Source: a candidate division KSB1 bacterium (GTDB lineage Bacteria > Zhuqueibacterota > JdFR-76 > DREG01). From it: a DNA stretch of 12,614 nucleotides. The notes under the pieces were generated by a model. It searched no databases and was not told where the DNA came from. It worked only from the letters and a program-made list of their open reading frames with translations. Made by a program: the position numbers and the translations under genes. Positions 5,866-11,748 of this stretch are shown piece by piece. Location: NCBI GenBank assembly GCA_022566355.1, contig JADFJB010000127.1:1-12614 (forward strand), written 5' to 3'. How positions within the stretch are numbered: position 1 is the first letter of the stretch; every line of letters starts with the position of its first letter.

Positions 5866-6258
5866 TTAGCCCCAAATACCAACCGAAGCTAACTCCAGAC
5901 TATTACCTGCCGGATCTCTAAAATAGATGGAATAACCGCCTTTAGGCCAATCAATTTCAGATTCAATTTCGACATCATTTTGTTTCAGATGATCACGCCA
6001 GGCTGAAATTTCAGATGCTTTAATTTGGAAAGCCACGTGACCCGGGCCATTTGCCCCATGAACTGGCACCTCCGTAATCTTTTTAGATGTCTCGCCTGGA
6101 TTGAAAAGTAGTAGCATCTGATTGCCACATCGGAAAAATAGATGTCTATTCTCGGAACGGGAATAAACCTTCAACCCGAGAACAACCGTATAAAAATCCT
6201 TTGCGGCATCCAAATCATCCACGTAGAGGCATGTTTCTAATATTTGATTGACTTTCAT
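5866..6258 (-). CDS. VOC (glyoxalase/dioxygenase fold) family protein
   Basis: This is a 130-aa single-domain vicinal oxygen chelate protein with two beta-alpha-beta-beta-beta repeats. The first runs from ETCLYVDDLDAAKDFYTVVLGL and the second from PGHVAFQI to FRDPAGNSLEL. Likely metal ligands are Glu8, His74 and Glu122; the first position is Glu rather than the His common in glyoxalase I. The ATG at 6258 has AAAGG upstream at good spacing. Such proteins may be lyases, dioxygenases or antibiotic-resistance proteins, and nothing here picks one of these. Confidence 0.88.
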   Translation of the reverse strand: MKVNQILETCLYVDDLDAAKDFYTVVLGLKVYSRSENRHLFFRCGNQMLLLFNPGETSKKITEVPVHGANGPGHVAFQIKASEISAWRDHLKQNDVEIESEIDWPKGGYSIYFRDPAGNSLELASVGIWG

Positions 6259-6291
6259 ACTTACCTTTAAGTTTTTAAAACCTTTTCGCAG

Positions 6292-6320
6292 ATAGTACTG
6301 TGAAAAAAAGTCTGACGCAA
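6292..6320 (-). promoter_or_regulatory. Possible promoter of the VOC gene
   Basis: On the minus strand, TTGCGT (6320-6315) and TACTAT (6297-6292) are 17 bp apart, about 34 bases before the start codon. Spacing is ideal but the hexamers match consensus only in part. Confidence 0.3.
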
Positions 6321-6338
6321 ATAAACGAAAAGTGAGAT

Positions 6339-6580
6339 CTTAAATAACGTGAATTCGACATAACCCGCATTGTTATGTTAGAGGTTTTAAGAAATTACCA
6401 TTTATGCTGTCATTTCGAGAAGTTTACGACGAGAAATCTTTATTATCCGAATAACAAATGATTTGTAAGCTCTAAGATTTCTCCTCGCTTCGCATCGTCG
6501 AAATGACGTTTATTATTTTGCATAGTTCTCATAATGAGTCAATCAAAGAGAAAGCTTATGTCGAACTCATGTTAAATAAG
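6339..6580. repeat. 242-bp concentric fold-back (MITE-like) element
   Basis: The 25-base ends at 6339-6363 and 6556-6580 are inverted repeats matching at 21 of 25 positions, sharing the core TTCGACATAA/TTATGTCGAA. Nested on the same centre are GTCATTTCGA (6409-6418) with TCGAAATGAC (6498-6507), and GAGAAATCTT (6431-6440) with AAGATTTCTC (6474-6483), both perfect. The element is thus one large interrupted palindrome without coding capacity. It lies between the divergent VOC and sigma-factor genes. Inverted ends and non-coding content suggest a non-autonomous mobile element; no target duplication is evident. Confidence 0.6.
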
Positions 6581-6607
6581 TGATTTATTTTGGGTGTAAC
6601 TCCAAGT

Positions 6608-6671
6608 CCTGGCAGGTTTTTTTCTAAAAAAGCTATTATCCATCAAAACATGGAGTTTGAAACCTGCCAGG
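6608..6671. repeat. 12-bp perfect inverted repeat, CCTGGCAGGTTT
   Basis: CCTGGCAGGTTT (6608-6619) and AAACCTGCCAGG (6660-6671) are perfect inverted repeats around 40 bases, with the right arm followed by a T-rich run. This is probably another dispersed fold-back. It is about 300 bp before the sigma gene, so a role in that gene's regulation is not obvious. No further gene or clear promoter is seen in 6672-6973. Confidence 0.5.
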
Positions 6672-6973
6672 TCTTTTCTAATCAAAAATCAAGAGGTGCC
6701 TAAAATGCCTAAAGAAATTTAAGTTAGAAATTAATAATTCTTAACACTTTAGAACACTTGTAAGATTGGATTTCTATTTCACAATTCATATTTTGAGCCG
6801 TGGTAGAGAATATCAATAAAGTAAACTTTTCTTGAATTTAAACACTCGTGATCCTACTATTTCATATCCTCGGATTGTTTCACCATGAATATCGGAAATT
6901 ATTAATAACAGTTACTTACAATCAAAATCCAATTCAATTATTGGTTCGTATTTTAAGAGAAGACTAGGTTTTT

Positions 6974-7567
6974 GTGAAGTTAGAGATTCAAAAAGAACGG
7001 CAGGATTTTCCAGATCAAAAACTGATGCAAGAAATTGCCGATAAACAAAAATGGGCTTTTTCCATAATCTATGACAGGCATTCTGCAATGCTGTTTGGGT
7101 TGGCTTTGAAGATATTGCACGACCGTTCTTCAGCTGAAGATGTTCTCCAGGAATTATTTTTGTCGGTTTGGGAAAAAGCTGATAAATTCAAAACTGAACG
7201 GGGAAATGCGGTTGCATGGATGACAATATTATGCCGAAACAAATGCATAGACAAATTGCGAAAGCTTGAAGTCAATAAACAAAGATCAACCGAATTGGAT
7301 GAGGAGTCTGTGATTCAGGTAAAAGCACATCAATCATCTGATGATCAATTTGATTTGGCACGACAAGCTATTTTACAAAAATCTGTTGCCGAGGCAATGG
7401 CTGAATTGCCGGGCGAGCAAAAGCAGCTTATTGAAATGGCTTTTTTTAGCGGATTTACGCAATCAGAAATTGCCGGCGAATTAAAATTACCTTTAGGTAC
7501 TGTGAAAACAAGAATTCGATCGGGCATGAAAAAATTACACGATATTTTAAAAGAGAAATTGATTTGA
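6974..7567 (+). CDS. ECF RNA polymerase sigma factor (SigK-like)
   Basis: This is an alternative sigma factor that directs RNA polymerase to a small regulon in response to an envelope signal. The 197-aa protein has region 2 at about residues 25-95, including DRSSAEDVLQELFLSVW (50-66) and the DNA-melting helix ending AWMTILCRNKCIDKLRK. Region 4 is at about 138-192, with the helix-turn-helix TQSEIAGELKLPLGTVKTR. It lacks region 3, as ECF factors do. The GTG at 6974 follows AGG by five bases; an in-frame ATG at 7025 (residue 18) also leaves region 2 intact, so the start is moderately sure. The anti-sigma gene follows after 12 bp. Pairing with an RskA-type partner places it near the SigK group; its target genes are not evident here. 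Confidence 0.93.
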   Translation: MKLEIQKERQDFPDQKLMQEIADKQKWAFSIIYDRHSAMLFGLALKILHDRSSAEDVLQELFLSVWEKADKFKTERGNAVAWMTILCRNKCIDKLRKLEVNKQRSTELDEESVIQVKAHQSSDDQFDLARQAILQKSVAEAMAELPGEQKQLIEMAFFSGFTQSEIAGELKLPLGTVKTRIRSGMKKLHDILKEKLI

Positions 7568-7579
7568 GATAGAAGATAA

Positions 7580-8395
7580 ATGGACCATAATGAATTAAAA
7601 GATCTGGCTGCTGCTTATAGTTTGGGCTCCTTGGATCCTGATGAAAAACGGCAGTTTGAAGCCCACCTTCGTCAAGACTGCGAAGAATGTCTAACATTGG
7701 TCAAAGAGATGCAGGAAGTGACAATCTCAATGGGCCAATCTGTACAGCCGGAAACGCCGCCAGCTCACATCAAAGAAAAACTATTTGCAGCCATTGAGGA
7801 TGAAAAATCGACTTCAGCCGAGATACCATCTGTGGGACTTCCCCTGATCGAAAAACTTCGTTCAGCCAAACGCCGATGGCAGTTCACGGCATATGGTTTA
7901 GGCTTTGCCGCCATTTTATTATTTGTTCTGTTTTCAACTTATTCTTCCGGCCTTAAATCCGAACTTGATTTACTGGCAGCGCGAATGGCAGCCGGCGAAA
8001 AACTGATCCAGAATTTGCGCACCGAATTAAACGACAAAGCACGCGTTCTGCAAATTATGCGGGCGCCGCAACTAAAAATGGCAGATCTGAATGGTTTACC
8101 GCCATCACCGGAAGCCAGAGGCAAGGTGATTTGGGACCCGGAAAATGATCAAGCCGTGTTCTTTGGATTTAATCTTGCCGCAATCCCATCGGATAAGGAC
8201 TACCAGTTATGGATGCTAAAAGGCAATCAACCGATCAGCGCCGGGGTGTTTACGCCGGATGCGGACGGCAACGCCATCTCTGAATTTACAACTATTCCCG
8301 ATGATGAAAACATCAGCGCGTTTGCGGTTACACTGGAACCCAAGGGGGGAGTTGCGCAGCCAACCGGGGAAATGTATTTGATAGGGGCGTTGTAG
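7580..8395 (+). CDS. Anti-sigma factor, RskA-like membrane protein
   Basis: The protein is expected to hold the upstream sigma factor inactive at the inner membrane until a signal triggers release. Residues 1-45 form the cytoplasmic anti-sigma domain (AAAYSLGSLDPDEKRQFEAHL) with a zinc-binding-like His29, Cys34, Cys37 cluster. A single membrane helix lies at about 101-119. A charged helical, probably coiled-coil stretch follows to about 160. The C-terminal RskA domain (about 165-271) contains YQLWMLKGNQPISAGVFTPDADG and ends EPKGGVAQPTGEMYLIGAL. Size and layout are normal. The gene begins 12 bp after the sigma gene, so the two are surely co-transcribed. Its last 80 codons, from Val193 to the stop, occur again at 10642-10881, so the present 3' end may have been acquired along with the module downstream. 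Confidence 0.92.
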   Translation: MDHNELKDLAAAYSLGSLDPDEKRQFEAHLRQDCEECLTLVKEMQEVTISMGQSVQPETPPAHIKEKLFAAIEDEKSTSAEIPSVGLPLIEKLRSAKRRWQFTAYGLGFAAILLFVLFSTYSSGLKSELDLLAARMAAGEKLIQNLRTELNDKARVLQIMRAPQLKMADLNGLPPSPEARGKVIWDPENDQAVFFGFNLAAIPSDKDYQLWMLKGNQPISAGVFTPDADGNAISEFTTIPDDENISAFAVTLEPKGGVAQPTGEMYLIGAL

Positions 8396-8667
8396 AAAAC
8401 CAGATCCAACTTTTGGCCTTTAGGAATTGTTAGATTCTTCAAAAATAGTGTTGCATTCTCAAATGTAAAGTCTTTTATTATTTTGTGTGGGAGGTGGTTG
8501 GGTTTTTGAAGATGAAACAAGGATATAAAATATGCACTATAAATTGAACGTTTTTATGTGACAAATTCCCCATATAATATGAATATAATAAGTTTAATAT
8601 GGTTTTTTCAACGGACTATAAGTTTTATGATTAAATAAATGTTAAAACATTTGTTTTCGCGGGTCTA
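8156..8667 (+). repeat. Direct repeat, copy A (anti-sigma 3' end and spacer)
   Basis: The coding part 8156-8395 matches 10642-10881 without gaps at 230 of 240 bases. Beyond the stop the match continues as islands in the same order: TTTTGGCCTTT at 8411 and 10897, ATTCTCAAAT at 8455 and 11013, TGTGTGGGAGGTG at 8485 and 11041, and a 30-base block at 8638-8667 and 11108-11137 with two differences. Spacer lengths differ by indels. The left limit is fuzzy by about 12 bp because both copies have GATC shortly before it. The two copies bracket the ATPase/DUF4276 module. Confidence 0.9.
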
Positions 8668-8741
8668 GTGCAGCGTTTCCTATATATTATTTCAACAGCA
8701 ATCGTATTTGTTGTCCTTAATGTTTGCGCAGCCATTAAAAA

Positions 8742-8775
8742 GTCATTGGTGGTTATCTGTGATTAACCCAATGAC
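8742..8775. repeat. Strong hairpin upstream of the ATPase gene
   Basis: GTCATTGG (8742-8749) pairs with CCAATGAC (8768-8775), and GTTA (8752-8755) pairs with TAAC (8764-8767), giving a 12-bp stem with a 2-base bulge and an 8-base loop. No T-run follows, so it is not a standard terminator. It lies about 135 bp before the ATPase start and could be a regulatory leader, an operator or a dispersed repeat. The rest of 8668-8910 has no recognisable gene or clear promoter. Confidence 0.5.
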
Positions 8776-8910
8776 AATAAGTGACTTAATGACAACTTGA
8801 AGACAGATTTTGTGATTCTTTGTGAGAACACTTAAATACGCACGTTATTTAGGAATCACAATACTTGTTAATAGTTGGGCAACATAATCAGAAGTAAAGG
8901 AAGACAAAGA

Positions 8911-10095
8911 ATGAAAATTACGAAATTGAATATTGAAGGTTTCCGTTCTCTCCGCAATGTTTGCTGGTTACCCGGTGATCTCAATGTTATTATCGGTCCT
9001 AATGGTACGGGTAAATCTAATTTGTTACGTTTTCTGGAATTGATTGCCATATCGGCACAGGGCAAGCTGAGCAAATACATTCAATCTTTAGGTGGAATGG
9101 ATCCGATAGTTTGGGATGGAATTGTTACTTCCATAAAGTTTTCCATGGAGACGACACCTGAAGGTGGGGAGATAGGTCCTGAACAGTACAATCTTGAATT
9201 GGTAAGACTTGGGTCGGGAAGTTCATATAAGGTTGAAAAAGAACTCTTAACAAACTTTCTAAAAGTGAGACGAGGTGAGGAAAAGAATCCATTTAAGTTT
9301 TTGGAACGGCATGCAAAGACGGCAGTAATTTTTGATGAAAAAGCACGTACCTTCACCACACTTGAAGAGTTTATATCGGATGAAGAAAGCCTCCTTTCCA
9401 TAGCATCGGGACCATTTATTAATAACCACTTCATTCCACCTTTCCAAAACGGACTGGCTTCGATAGCTGTTTATCACGATTTGCACACCAATAAGGACGC
9501 ATCTATCCGTCAGCCTGCTATTGCTCGTTTGGAAAAACGCGTTGATCCAGACGGTCAAAACCTTATTTCAGTTATACATACCCTTTACACAAGTGATCGC
9601 GATTTCAAAAACGATATTAATTCAGCTATGCAGGCAGCATTTGGTGACGATTTTGAAGAGTTGGTTTTCCCGCCGGCTTCTGACCAGAGAATTCAATTAC
9701 GGATTCGTTGGAAATCACTGAAACGAGAGCAATCCGCAGCAGAACTCTCTGATGGAACCCTTCGCTTTCTGTTTCTGTTAACTGTTCTGGCAAGCCCATC
9801 GCCAGCCCCCGTTATCGCAATAGATGAGCCCGAAACTGGACTTCATCCCTCGATGCTTCCTATTGTCGCGGAATATGCAATAGAAGCATCAACAAGATCG
9901 CAAGTGATTCTGACTACTCATTCTCCTCAATTTCTAGATGCTTTTGTGACAACCAGACCTACGACAACTATTGCGAAATGGCAAGATGGTGAAACGGTCC
10001 TGAAAACCTTGAGCGGGGATGAGCTTGACTACTGGCTGAAGGAATACTCGCTGGGGGCTCTTTTCAAATCTGGAGAATTGGAGCAGATGGGATGA
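8911..10095 (+). CDS. AAA_21-type ABC/SMC-like ATPase, probable defence protein
   Basis: This is a 394-aa cytoplasmic ATPase of the OLD/RecF-like ABC class. It opens with KITKLNIEGFRSL, the usual first strand of the family, then Walker A GPNGTGKS (29-36). An insert at about 80-260 lacks recognisable motifs. The ABC-like signature LSDGT is at 279-283, Walker B with the catalytic Glu in IDEPETGLHP at 304-313, and the switch histidine in TTHSP at 336-339. The start at ATG 8911 is chosen because AAAGGAAG lies just upstream; the reading frame is open from 8875 but lacks such a site there. It overlaps the DUF4276 gene by ATGA, implying translational coupling. Such ATPases often sense phage or damaged DNA and control a paired nuclease-like subunit. 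That role is inferred from gene pairing. Confidence 0.9.
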   Translation: MKITKLNIEGFRSLRNVCWLPGDLNVIIGPNGTGKSNLLRFLELIAISAQGKLSKYIQSLGGMDPIVWDGIVTSIKFSMETTPEGGEIGPEQYNLELVRLGSGSSYKVEKELLTNFLKVRRGEEKNPFKFLERHAKTAVIFDEKARTFTTLEEFISDEESLLSIASGPFINNHFIPPFQNGLASIAVYHDLHTNKDASIRQPAIARLEKRVDPDGQNLISVIHTLYTSDRDFKNDINSAMQAAFGDDFEELVFPPASDQRIQLRIRWKSLKREQSAAELSDGTLRFLFLLTVLASPSPAPVIAIDEPETGLHPSMLPIVAEYAIEASTRSQVILTTHSPQFLDAFVTTRPTTTIAKWQDGETVLKTLSGDELDYWLKEYSLGALFKSGELEQMG

Positions 10096-10658
10096 GATTT
10101 ATTCTTTTCGTTGAGGGTTATACGGAAAATAAAGCACTGCCTCAATTTCTGAAAAAATGGCTTGATCCTAAATTGCCGAATCCTATCGGGATTAAAACTG
10201 TTCGCTTTGAAGGATGGTCGGAGCTAGTCAAAGACGCTCCCTTGAAAGCAAAAATGCATTTGGACGGCCCTGATAAAAGTGAAATTATTGCTGTCATTTC
10301 TTTATTGGATCTTTATGGACCGACCTTTTATCCCAGTAAGCTGAAAGATAGCAAAGAACGATACGATTGGGCCAAGAAAGATATCGAAGACAAGGTCGAC
10401 CAACCTAAATTTTTTCAATTTTTCGCAGTTTACGAAGTCGAGTCATGGCTTCTAAGTGAACCAAAAATATTCCCTATTGAAGTCAAAAGAGCCTTCTCAA
10501 CTCAAGTTAAATATCCGGAAAAGGTGAACTTTAATGAGCCGCCAGCAAAATTACTGGAACGTCTTTATTCTCTGCACGGCAAGCGTTTATACAAAAAAGT
10601 GGTGAATGGGAAAGCGCTTTTCAGCAAACTCGATCCAGGCGGTGTTCTATGGATTTAA
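10092..10658 (+). CDS. DUF4276 (TOPRIM-like) protein, probably C-terminally truncated
   Basis: The 188-aa partner of the ATPase starts inside that gene's stop codon. The N-terminal FILFVEGYTENKALPQFL carries the acidic VEGxTE motif (Glu8, Glu12), followed by a second acidic motif LLDLYGP (Asp73) and YEVESWLLSEP (Glu115, Glu117). This order matches DUF4276 and resembles a TOPRIM-type metal site. As I recall, family members end with YKK..G..L..K.DP.. and about 20-25 more residues. Here the sequence reaches YKKVVNGKALFSKLDP and then enters the duplicated anti-sigma DNA out of frame, ending GGVLWI. The gene therefore looks cut at its 3' end by the recombination that made copy B. The acidic core is intact, so activity is possible but unproven. 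Confidence 0.8.
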   Translation: MRFILFVEGYTENKALPQFLKKWLDPKLPNPIGIKTVRFEGWSELVKDAPLKAKMHLDGPDKSEIIAVISLLDLYGPTFYPSKLKDSKERYDWAKKDIEDKVDQPKFFQFFAVYEVESWLLSEPKIFPIEVKRAFSTQVKYPEKVNFNEPPAKLLERLYSLHGKRLYKKVVNGKALFSKLDPGGVLWI

Positions 10659-10881
10659 TCTTGCCGCAATCCCATCAGATAAGGACTACCAGTTATGGAT
10701 GCTAAAAGGCAATCAACCGATTAGCGCCGGGGTGTTTACGCCGGATGCTGACGGCAACGCCATCTCTGAATTTACTACTATTCCCGATGATGAAAACATC
10801 AGCGCGTTTGCGGTTACACTGGAACCCAAGGGGGGAGTTTCGCAGCCAACCGGTGAGATGTATTTGATAGGGGCACTGTAG
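10642..10881 (+). pseudogene. Headless 3' fragment of the anti-sigma gene (copy B)
   Basis: This is an 80-codon remnant, 79 residues plus stop, of an RskA-like anti-sigma gene. It differs from copy A at ten bases: eight silent, plus Phe to Tyr and Ala to Ser. It lacks the zinc-binding domain and the membrane helix. An open frame extends back to an ATG at 10606, but those codons are DUF4276 sequence read out of frame and have no ribosome-binding site. It is best read as the displaced end of the original gene or a duplicated scar, not a working gene. Confidence 0.85.
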
Positions 10882-11137
10882 AATACCAAATCATATTTTT
10901 GGCCTTTGTGTTTCAACTTTGTAGTTTATTCTTGAAATTGTAAACCATCATCCTTGAGATCCGTTTAAAAAAACCTCATCTAATATTGTAGTATTGATAA
11001 AAAAAGGGTTGAATTCTCAAATTGGATGTCTTTTATTTCTTGTGTGGGAGGTGAGTGGGTTGTATGTTTAACTGGTTATTTACAAACCAATAAATTTTCA
11101 TAAACTGAATGTTATAACATTTGTTTTCGCAGGTCTA
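10642..11137 (+). repeat. Direct repeat, copy B
   Basis: This is the partner of 8156-8667. After the stop at 10881 the match is patchy, with about 60 extra bases near 10910-11005, and closes with the 30-base block 11108-11137. The region 10882-11193 holds no gene, only this diverged spacer. Confidence 0.88.
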
Positions 11138-11193
11138 ATTAGTAGTTATATACCCTCTTCCATTAGAAAAAAATCCATTCCAATAAAAAAGAC

Positions 11194-11222
11194 TTGACAA
11201 ACAAAATAAATACGTGTATATT
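11194..11222 (+). promoter_or_regulatory. Strong sigma-70-type promoter of the MarR gene
   Basis: TTGACA (11194-11199) is a perfect -35 hexamer. TATATT (11217-11222) is a near-consensus -10, with a 17-bp spacer. It reads toward the MarR gene, whose AAAGGAG ribosome-binding site begins 12 bp beyond the -10 box. Confidence 0.8.
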
Positions 11223-11228
11223 CACGTA
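11211..11228. promoter_or_regulatory. Palindromic operator over the MarR -10 box
   Basis: TACGTG (11211-11216) and CACGTA (11223-11228) are perfect inverted halves flanking the six -10 bases. A dimeric MarR protein bound here would block polymerase, giving autorepression. A related palindrome precedes the next gene (11713-11727). Confidence 0.65.
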
Positions 11229-11245
11229 ATAAGAAAGGAGATATT

Positions 11246-11677
11246 ACGAATTTATTTGAATTACCTAATTGTGCCTGTTTTAACTTGCGAAAAGCAACAC
11301 GGGCGGTTACCCAACTTTATGACCGAATATTAAGCCCGGCCGGTCTGCGGGCAACGCAATTTACCATTTTGGCAATGCTCTCACTTAAAGGGAGTTTGTC
11401 GATTACCCGGATGGCAAACTTTTTAGTCATGGAACGCACAACCTTGACCCGTAACCTGAAACCATTGGAAAAGCAAGGGTATGTAACCATTCTTCCCGGT
11501 GAAGATCAACGTGTGCGAAATGTGGTATTAACAAAAACCGGCCAACAGATGTTTGAGAAAGCGCTCCCCCTTTGGAAACAGGCGCAGACTAAGATTACCG
11601 AAGCGATGGGAAGCCAAAAATATCAGACTTTTTTAGCGCATTTATCGTCCATTATATCCGTGGCTCAGAAAGCATAG
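11246..11677 (+). CDS. MarR-family transcriptional regulator, ACG start likely
   Basis: This is a winged helix-turn-helix repressor of the MarR type, probably dimeric and ligand-responsive. The core runs LRATQFTILAMLSLKGSLSITRMANFLVMERTTLTRNLKPLEKQGYV, with the wing at GEDQRVRNVVLT. No ATG is available at the 5' end. The optimally placed codon, five bases after AAAGGAG (11234-11240), is ACG at 11246. From there the frame reads NLFELPNCACFNLRKATRAVTQLYDRIL, a stretch that looks like conserved family sequence. The first standard start, TTG at 11285, has no ribosome-binding site and would delete 13 residues including both Cys. I call 11246 (143 aa); ATT at 11243 is too close to the ribosome-binding site. 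Either a rare start, an ATG-to-ACG mutation or a sequence error explains this. It is probably autoregulated through 11211-11228. Confidence 0.88.
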   Translation, partial: TNLFELPNCACFNLRKATRAVTQLYDRILSPAGLRATQFTILAMLSLKGSLSITRMANFLVMERTTLTRNLKPLEKQGYVTILPGEDQRVRNVVLTKTGQQMFEKALPLWKQAQTKITEAMGSQKYQTFLAHLSSIISVAQKA

Positions 11678-11705: not shown

Positions 11706-11712
11706 AGATAAT
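11683..11712 (+). promoter_or_regulatory. Possible promoter of the DUF1302-like gene
   Basis: TTACAA (11683-11688) and GATAAT (11707-11712) are 18 bp apart, just before the palindrome at 11713-11727. The -35 match is weak. If real, the operator would overlap the transcription start. Confidence 0.3.
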
Positions 11713-11727
11713 TACGTGTAATTACAC
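11713..11727. promoter_or_regulatory. Second MarR-type operator
   Basis: GTGTAATTACAC (11716-11727) is a perfect 12-bp palindrome. With its left flank it shares the half-site TACGTGTA with the operator at 11211-11228. It lies just upstream of the AAGGAG site of the next gene, so the same MarR protein probably represses both genes. Confidence 0.55.
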
Positions 11728-11748
11728 TAAACTTGTAAGGAGATAATC

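Follow-up and report, generated by a model that had tools for sequence, protein, structure and literature searches.

HEC-01 is catalogued in PADLOC-DB as a candidate defense system. HECs as a group are mentioned in the literature (PMC12988326); our literature search uncovered no experimental work on HEC-01 itself, and the PADLOC paper contains no description of it. The window analyzed here, an entire contig of 12.6 kb (C127) from a draft genome of candidate division KSB1 (4.62 Mb in 213 contigs, 98.5% complete, 0.21% contamination), likewise carries an overlapping pair of ATPase and DUF4276 genes, but its HEC-01B protein lacks the last 25–26 residues. The pair lies between an intact anti-sigma factor gene and a headless copy of the 3′ end of that gene.

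Several described processes leave a comparable layout. Integration of the prophage e14 in icd duplicates 163 bp of the 3′ end of the gene, with the element supplying the working end (PMC6379469). Our locus is similar in that a 3′ gene end is duplicated around cargo and the incoming end appears to complete the gene; however, it has no integrase and no recognizable element end, and its far end truncates a cargo gene. Homology-facilitated illegitimate recombination (HFIR) and the integration of ligation-circularized linear DNA by a single crossover were both described by Amarir-Bouhram et al. (PMC3240628). Here too, one side is homologous, the other is an illegitimate join of 2–3 nt, and foreign cargo would have been gained with the host gene kept, although the position of the left crossover cannot be read from the sequence. 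For T6SS modules that leave former 3′ ends downstream when they insert, the same process has been invoked (PMC5361080). In V. cholerae, the displaced ends and orphan immunity genes of T6SS/Rhs loci share with our locus the anchoring by upstream homology and the headless old end downstream, but the two 3′ ends of our locus, old and new, encode nearly the same protein, and the cargo is an HEC-01-type defense pair with its second gene cut.

Gene order and extent of the repeat

All features of the window are given on the forward strand. An ECF sigma factor gene (6974–7567; Pfam Sigma70_r2 and r4_2), whose pairing with an anti-sigma gene is retained in distant relatives, precedes the intact anti-sigma factor gene (7580–8395; RskA_C). 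It is followed by the gene for a full-length AAA_21 ATPase of HEC-01A type (8911–10095; 68% identity to the homolog in genome G081), which begins with ATG at 8911, the open reading frame list also offering TTG at 8875, and by the gene for a HEC-01B-type DUF4276 protein cut at its C-terminus (10092–10658); both were recognized with Pfam and PADLOC. The headless anti-sigma 3′ end (10636–10907; RskA_C fragment) retains its frame and stop codon, and the next gene encodes a MarR-family regulator (11285–11677; Pfam). Palindromes flank the MarR gene, one preceding it (ACGTGTATATTCACGT, about 11210–11230) and one between it and the next gene (ACGTGTAATTACACT, about 11708–11728); both are probable MarR operators. 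No Rfam family was matched between 7500 and 11400 at E up to 1.

The contiguous part of copy A (8150–8421), comprising the coding 3′ end and 26 nt of spacer, aligns with copy B (10636–10907) over 272 nt at 94% identity and at a spacing of 2486 bp; the longest identical run is 63 nt. Copy B is the sole other copy of the repeat in the genome (E 1.2e-115), and the similarity is far beyond chance. After 8421 and 10907 it becomes patchy, with about 70 extra nucleotides in copy B preceding a second orthologous spacer block (8441–8504 and 10999–11061, 84% identity). The true duplicated stretch stops at 8504 and 11061, beyond which each side has a different subtype of a dispersed intergenic element and a different gene. 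The first-pass annotation had described a repeat of about 500 bp on both sides of the module; the repeat is real but not uniform, and its last 50 nt (8620–8669 and 11090–11137) belong to the dispersed family. These positions were considered as a third duplicated block, which was rejected after comparing all copies of the dispersed element; the likeness is that of two family members, which therefore lie outside the duplicated locus.

Other elements of the earlier description held. Copy A completes a working gene, whereas copy B lacks the head, and no integrase or transposase is visible on the contig, which is the whole window. The suggestion that recombination between the copies would remove about 2.5 kb agrees with their spacing: such a loop-out would excise 2486 bp, leaving an intact anti-sigma gene.

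Divergence of the copies and their relatives

The 80 codons shared by copies A and B differ by nine synonymous and two non-synonymous substitutions, distributed over 54 synonymous and 183 non-synonymous sites, respectively (P = 6e-5 under the equal rates of neutral drift). Jukes–Cantor distances are 0.188 for synonymous sites, 0.191 for the shared spacer and 0.011 for non-synonymous sites. Since synonymous divergence equals that of the spacer and non-synonymous divergence is far lower, both copies appear to have been functional while diverging; judging from this pattern, each must have belonged to a working gene during almost the entire time in which they diverged. The two residues replaced in copy B (Y and S) are unremarkable, as Y is present at that position in a distant homolog and the A/S site is variable. 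The copies may best be read as alleles of two related genomes that were united recently, two working loci in one genome being less likely; no other full anti-sigma paralog that could serve as a source was found in this genome. Copy B is the likelier original host end because it is followed by the MarR gene, the presumed ancestral neighbor of the anti-sigma end in the B lineage.

Neither 59 related genomes nor a genome-contig search yielded an anti-sigma relative closer than 47% identity, the nearest coming from another family of the phylum; among named records, the nearest relatives are metagenome-assembled genomes labeled Caldithrix sp. and candidate division KSB1. Same-family genomes gave no match to the anti-sigma factor, and same-order genomes a single marginal one (G005, E 9.6e-4). 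No close match to the sigma factor (best 30% identity) or to the MarR regulator (one weak match of 20% in G005) was found in either group. In more distant relatives, other genes lie downstream of the anti-sigma gene. Nothing related to the anti-sigma end was found in viral contigs or phages, and a single weak match of 35% came from plasmids. In the distant relative G035 (contig C14, 2919–5297), two tandem anti-sigma-like genes lie behind a sigma factor gene, so neighboring anti-sigma genes do occur in the phylum.

The truncated HEC-01B gene and the right-hand junction

PADLOC models identified HEC-01A with an E-value of 3.4e-62 (model positions 27–388 of 393) and HEC-01B with 1.6e-10; the ATPase component is present, and a complete DUF4276 partner is absent. 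The HEC-01B protein is native through residue 182, after which six foreign residues and a stop codon follow. Its homologs in genomes G081 (62% identity), G080 (58%) and G048 (57%) extend 25–26 residues past a shared SKLDP motif (SKLDPNLAYTKCPRLKELLDEMLKLAKEAGL in G081), and the Pfam DUF4276 match in the window protein ends at position 174 of 192. This truncation, located at the right-hand junction, was missed in the first-pass annotation. The clipped partner is probably impaired, with loss of HEC-01B function, and the HEC-01 copy in the window is probably damaged.

At the DNA level, the window tracks the DUF4276 homologs of G081 and G048 through CTCGATCCA and matches copy A in register from position 10636 onward; the two parental sequences overlap at the junction (10636–10638) by CA or CAG, i.e., by 2–3 nt. 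Because the DUF4276 gene is cut and the microhomology is confined to these few nucleotides, the sequence comparison marks the right-hand join as illegitimate and internal to a gene, and not as the end of an element.

HEC-01B relatives are patchily distributed, occurring in 4 of 82 genomes of the phylum, and none was found in viral contigs. The three HEC-01 modules elsewhere in the phylum occupy unrelated loci without bracketing repeats. In two of these genomes, which belong to another family (G081, 6736–10364; G048, 6135–9611), the HEC-01 pair is intact and is followed by a gene with a TLCGGHI motif, possibly encoding a thiamine-pyrophosphate enzyme. As this third gene is similar in both genomes, it may travel together with the HEC-01 pair.

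Origin of the arrangement and the dispersed element

The explanation best supported, which we consider probable, is an ordinary recombinational capture in which the cargo itself was damaged: a chromosomal fragment from a relative would have been acquired at the anti-sigma gene by homologous recombination on one side and illegitimate recombination on the other. From the repeat, its substitution pattern, the truncation and the junction we infer the donor, the direction (that is, which copy was the host's own) and the mechanism as follows. The donor would be a close relative at about 17–19% neutral divergence, and the incoming piece would have consisted of the anti-sigma 3′ end, the spacer, the dispersed element, HEC-01A and most of HEC-01B. 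The left side would result from homologous recombination inside the common anti-sigma sequence, whereas on the right an illegitimate join at the microhomology would have linked codon 182 of HEC-01B to the anti-sigma gene midway along its length. The locus has extended homology on one side (the 272 nt and the spacer block) and 2–3 nt only on the other. The route could have been direct HFIR, or end-to-end circularization followed by a single crossover, with an identical final sequence. As an outcome, the full anti-sigma gene would have been kept, a full ATPase and a clipped DUF4276 gene gained, and the displaced 3′ end left headless before the MarR gene. Measurements show HFIR to be rare (PMC3240628, PMC5361080), which counts against capture; so does the fact that the genomes searched contained neither a donor nor an empty site, i.e., no locus with the A or the B arrangement alone.

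The integration of a circle carrying a 3′ gene end had been proposed before. Circularization with a single crossover is a known process, and such a circle is therefore possible without a dedicated element; the geometry fits, and the substitution pattern places the two ends in different lineages, but the site-specific route is not borne out. Both the original observation and its interpretation are thus upheld in part. Under the capture reading, one sequence would show a defense-type module gained without a mobile element, through recombination with the chromosome of a relative; comparing synonymous with spacer divergence is what distinguishes such a gain from insertion at an att site and from an old duplication. 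The event would otherwise be of an ordinary kind, in a poorly sampled phylum.

A deletion within a former tandem pair can yield the same final sequence, yet we regard it as unlikely. Two diverged anti-sigma loci would have flanked HEC-01, and a single deletion from codon 182 of HEC-01B into the second anti-sigma gene would account for the loss of the HEC-01B tail and of the copy B head at the same base; the purifying pattern is compatible with two functional paralogs. This scenario nevertheless requires a prior tandem arrangement of two orthologue-like loci, and the genome contains neither a second full anti-sigma gene nor a close paralog of the sigma factor, the next one being 28% identical.

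Site-specific integration of the icd/e14 type would involve an element with its own anti-sigma 3′ end, an att core near 8150 and an integrase lost later. The geometry is that of e14 in icd (PMC6379469), and the protein sequence encoded by the anti-sigma 3′ end is conserved. However, the end of the element would fall inside HEC-01B, deleting 25–26 conserved residues, and the orthologous similarity does not end with the stop codon but extends into the spacer, at a neutral rate, as expected for a chromosomal relative. Between the copies there are only the ATPase and DUF4276 genes, the contig has no integrase, and neither the viral searches, with no relative of the anti-sigma end, nor the single weak plasmid match points to a mobile carrier. 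HEC-01 is also unbracketed elsewhere in the phylum. We consider such integration improbable, and the unrecognized insertion site that the first-pass annotation suggested for the 3′ end of the anti-sigma gene is not supported.

Equally improbable is an assembly chimera, in which the anti-sigma copy A and HEC-01 of one strain were fused by the assembler to copy B and the MarR gene of another. The draft consists of 213 contigs, has no same-genus relative, and contains two alleles resembling those of two strains; on the other hand, a k-mer overlap would need far more than the 2–3 nt that the parental sequences share in register (or the 6 that they share at most out of register), the window contains no N, contamination is low, and no alternative contig carries either allele. 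That the gene end was duplicated in place long ago and has decayed since is very hard to credit: although a headless copy cannot work as an anti-sigma factor, a functionless copy drifting in place would have gained both types of change alike and would not give the 9:2 ratio observed, and the frame and stop codon of copy B are intact.

The dispersed element is an intergenic sequence of about 160–250 nt found in 14 places (one being an opposite-strand overlap) on six contigs. In the window, a C15a-like subtype lies just upstream of the HEC-01 module (8521–8676), and the 3′ half of a C102b/C140a-like subtype lies on the B side (11059–11146). The A-side element is 74% identical to C15a and the B-side element 80% identical to C102b/C140a, compared with 62% between the two. 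Other copies occur on contigs C102 (14618–14739, 15694–15849 and 16498–16610), C140 (1702–1855 and 7848–7997), C15 (18053–18206, 25324–25453 and 25926–26040), C115 (9690–9794 and 10539–10626) and C55 (22148–22278). None of the other 81 genomes from the phylum contains the element, and its motif was found in no viral contigs. No integron integrase in the genome exceeded the cut-off (TIGR02249, best 78.5 bits against a cut-off of 265), and sub-cut-off matches were also present in all 14 control genomes; inspection by eye for attC features revealed no regular GTTRRRY end, and the predicted folds were inconsistent between copies.

There is a slim chance that genuine exchange takes place at the position after the anti-sigma gene, where each lineage would hold its own cassette of an element and an accessory gene, and that the element family marks a cassette system for which no recombinase is known. 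The anti-sigma end and spacer would then be common to both lineages, followed in lineage A by its element with HEC-01 and in lineage B by its element with the MarR gene. The element itself may be a MITE-like sequence or a cassette boundary; its copies cluster on few contigs and often immediately precede genes of accessory type (HEC-01A, PRiA4_ORF3, DUF6398 and DUF5677).
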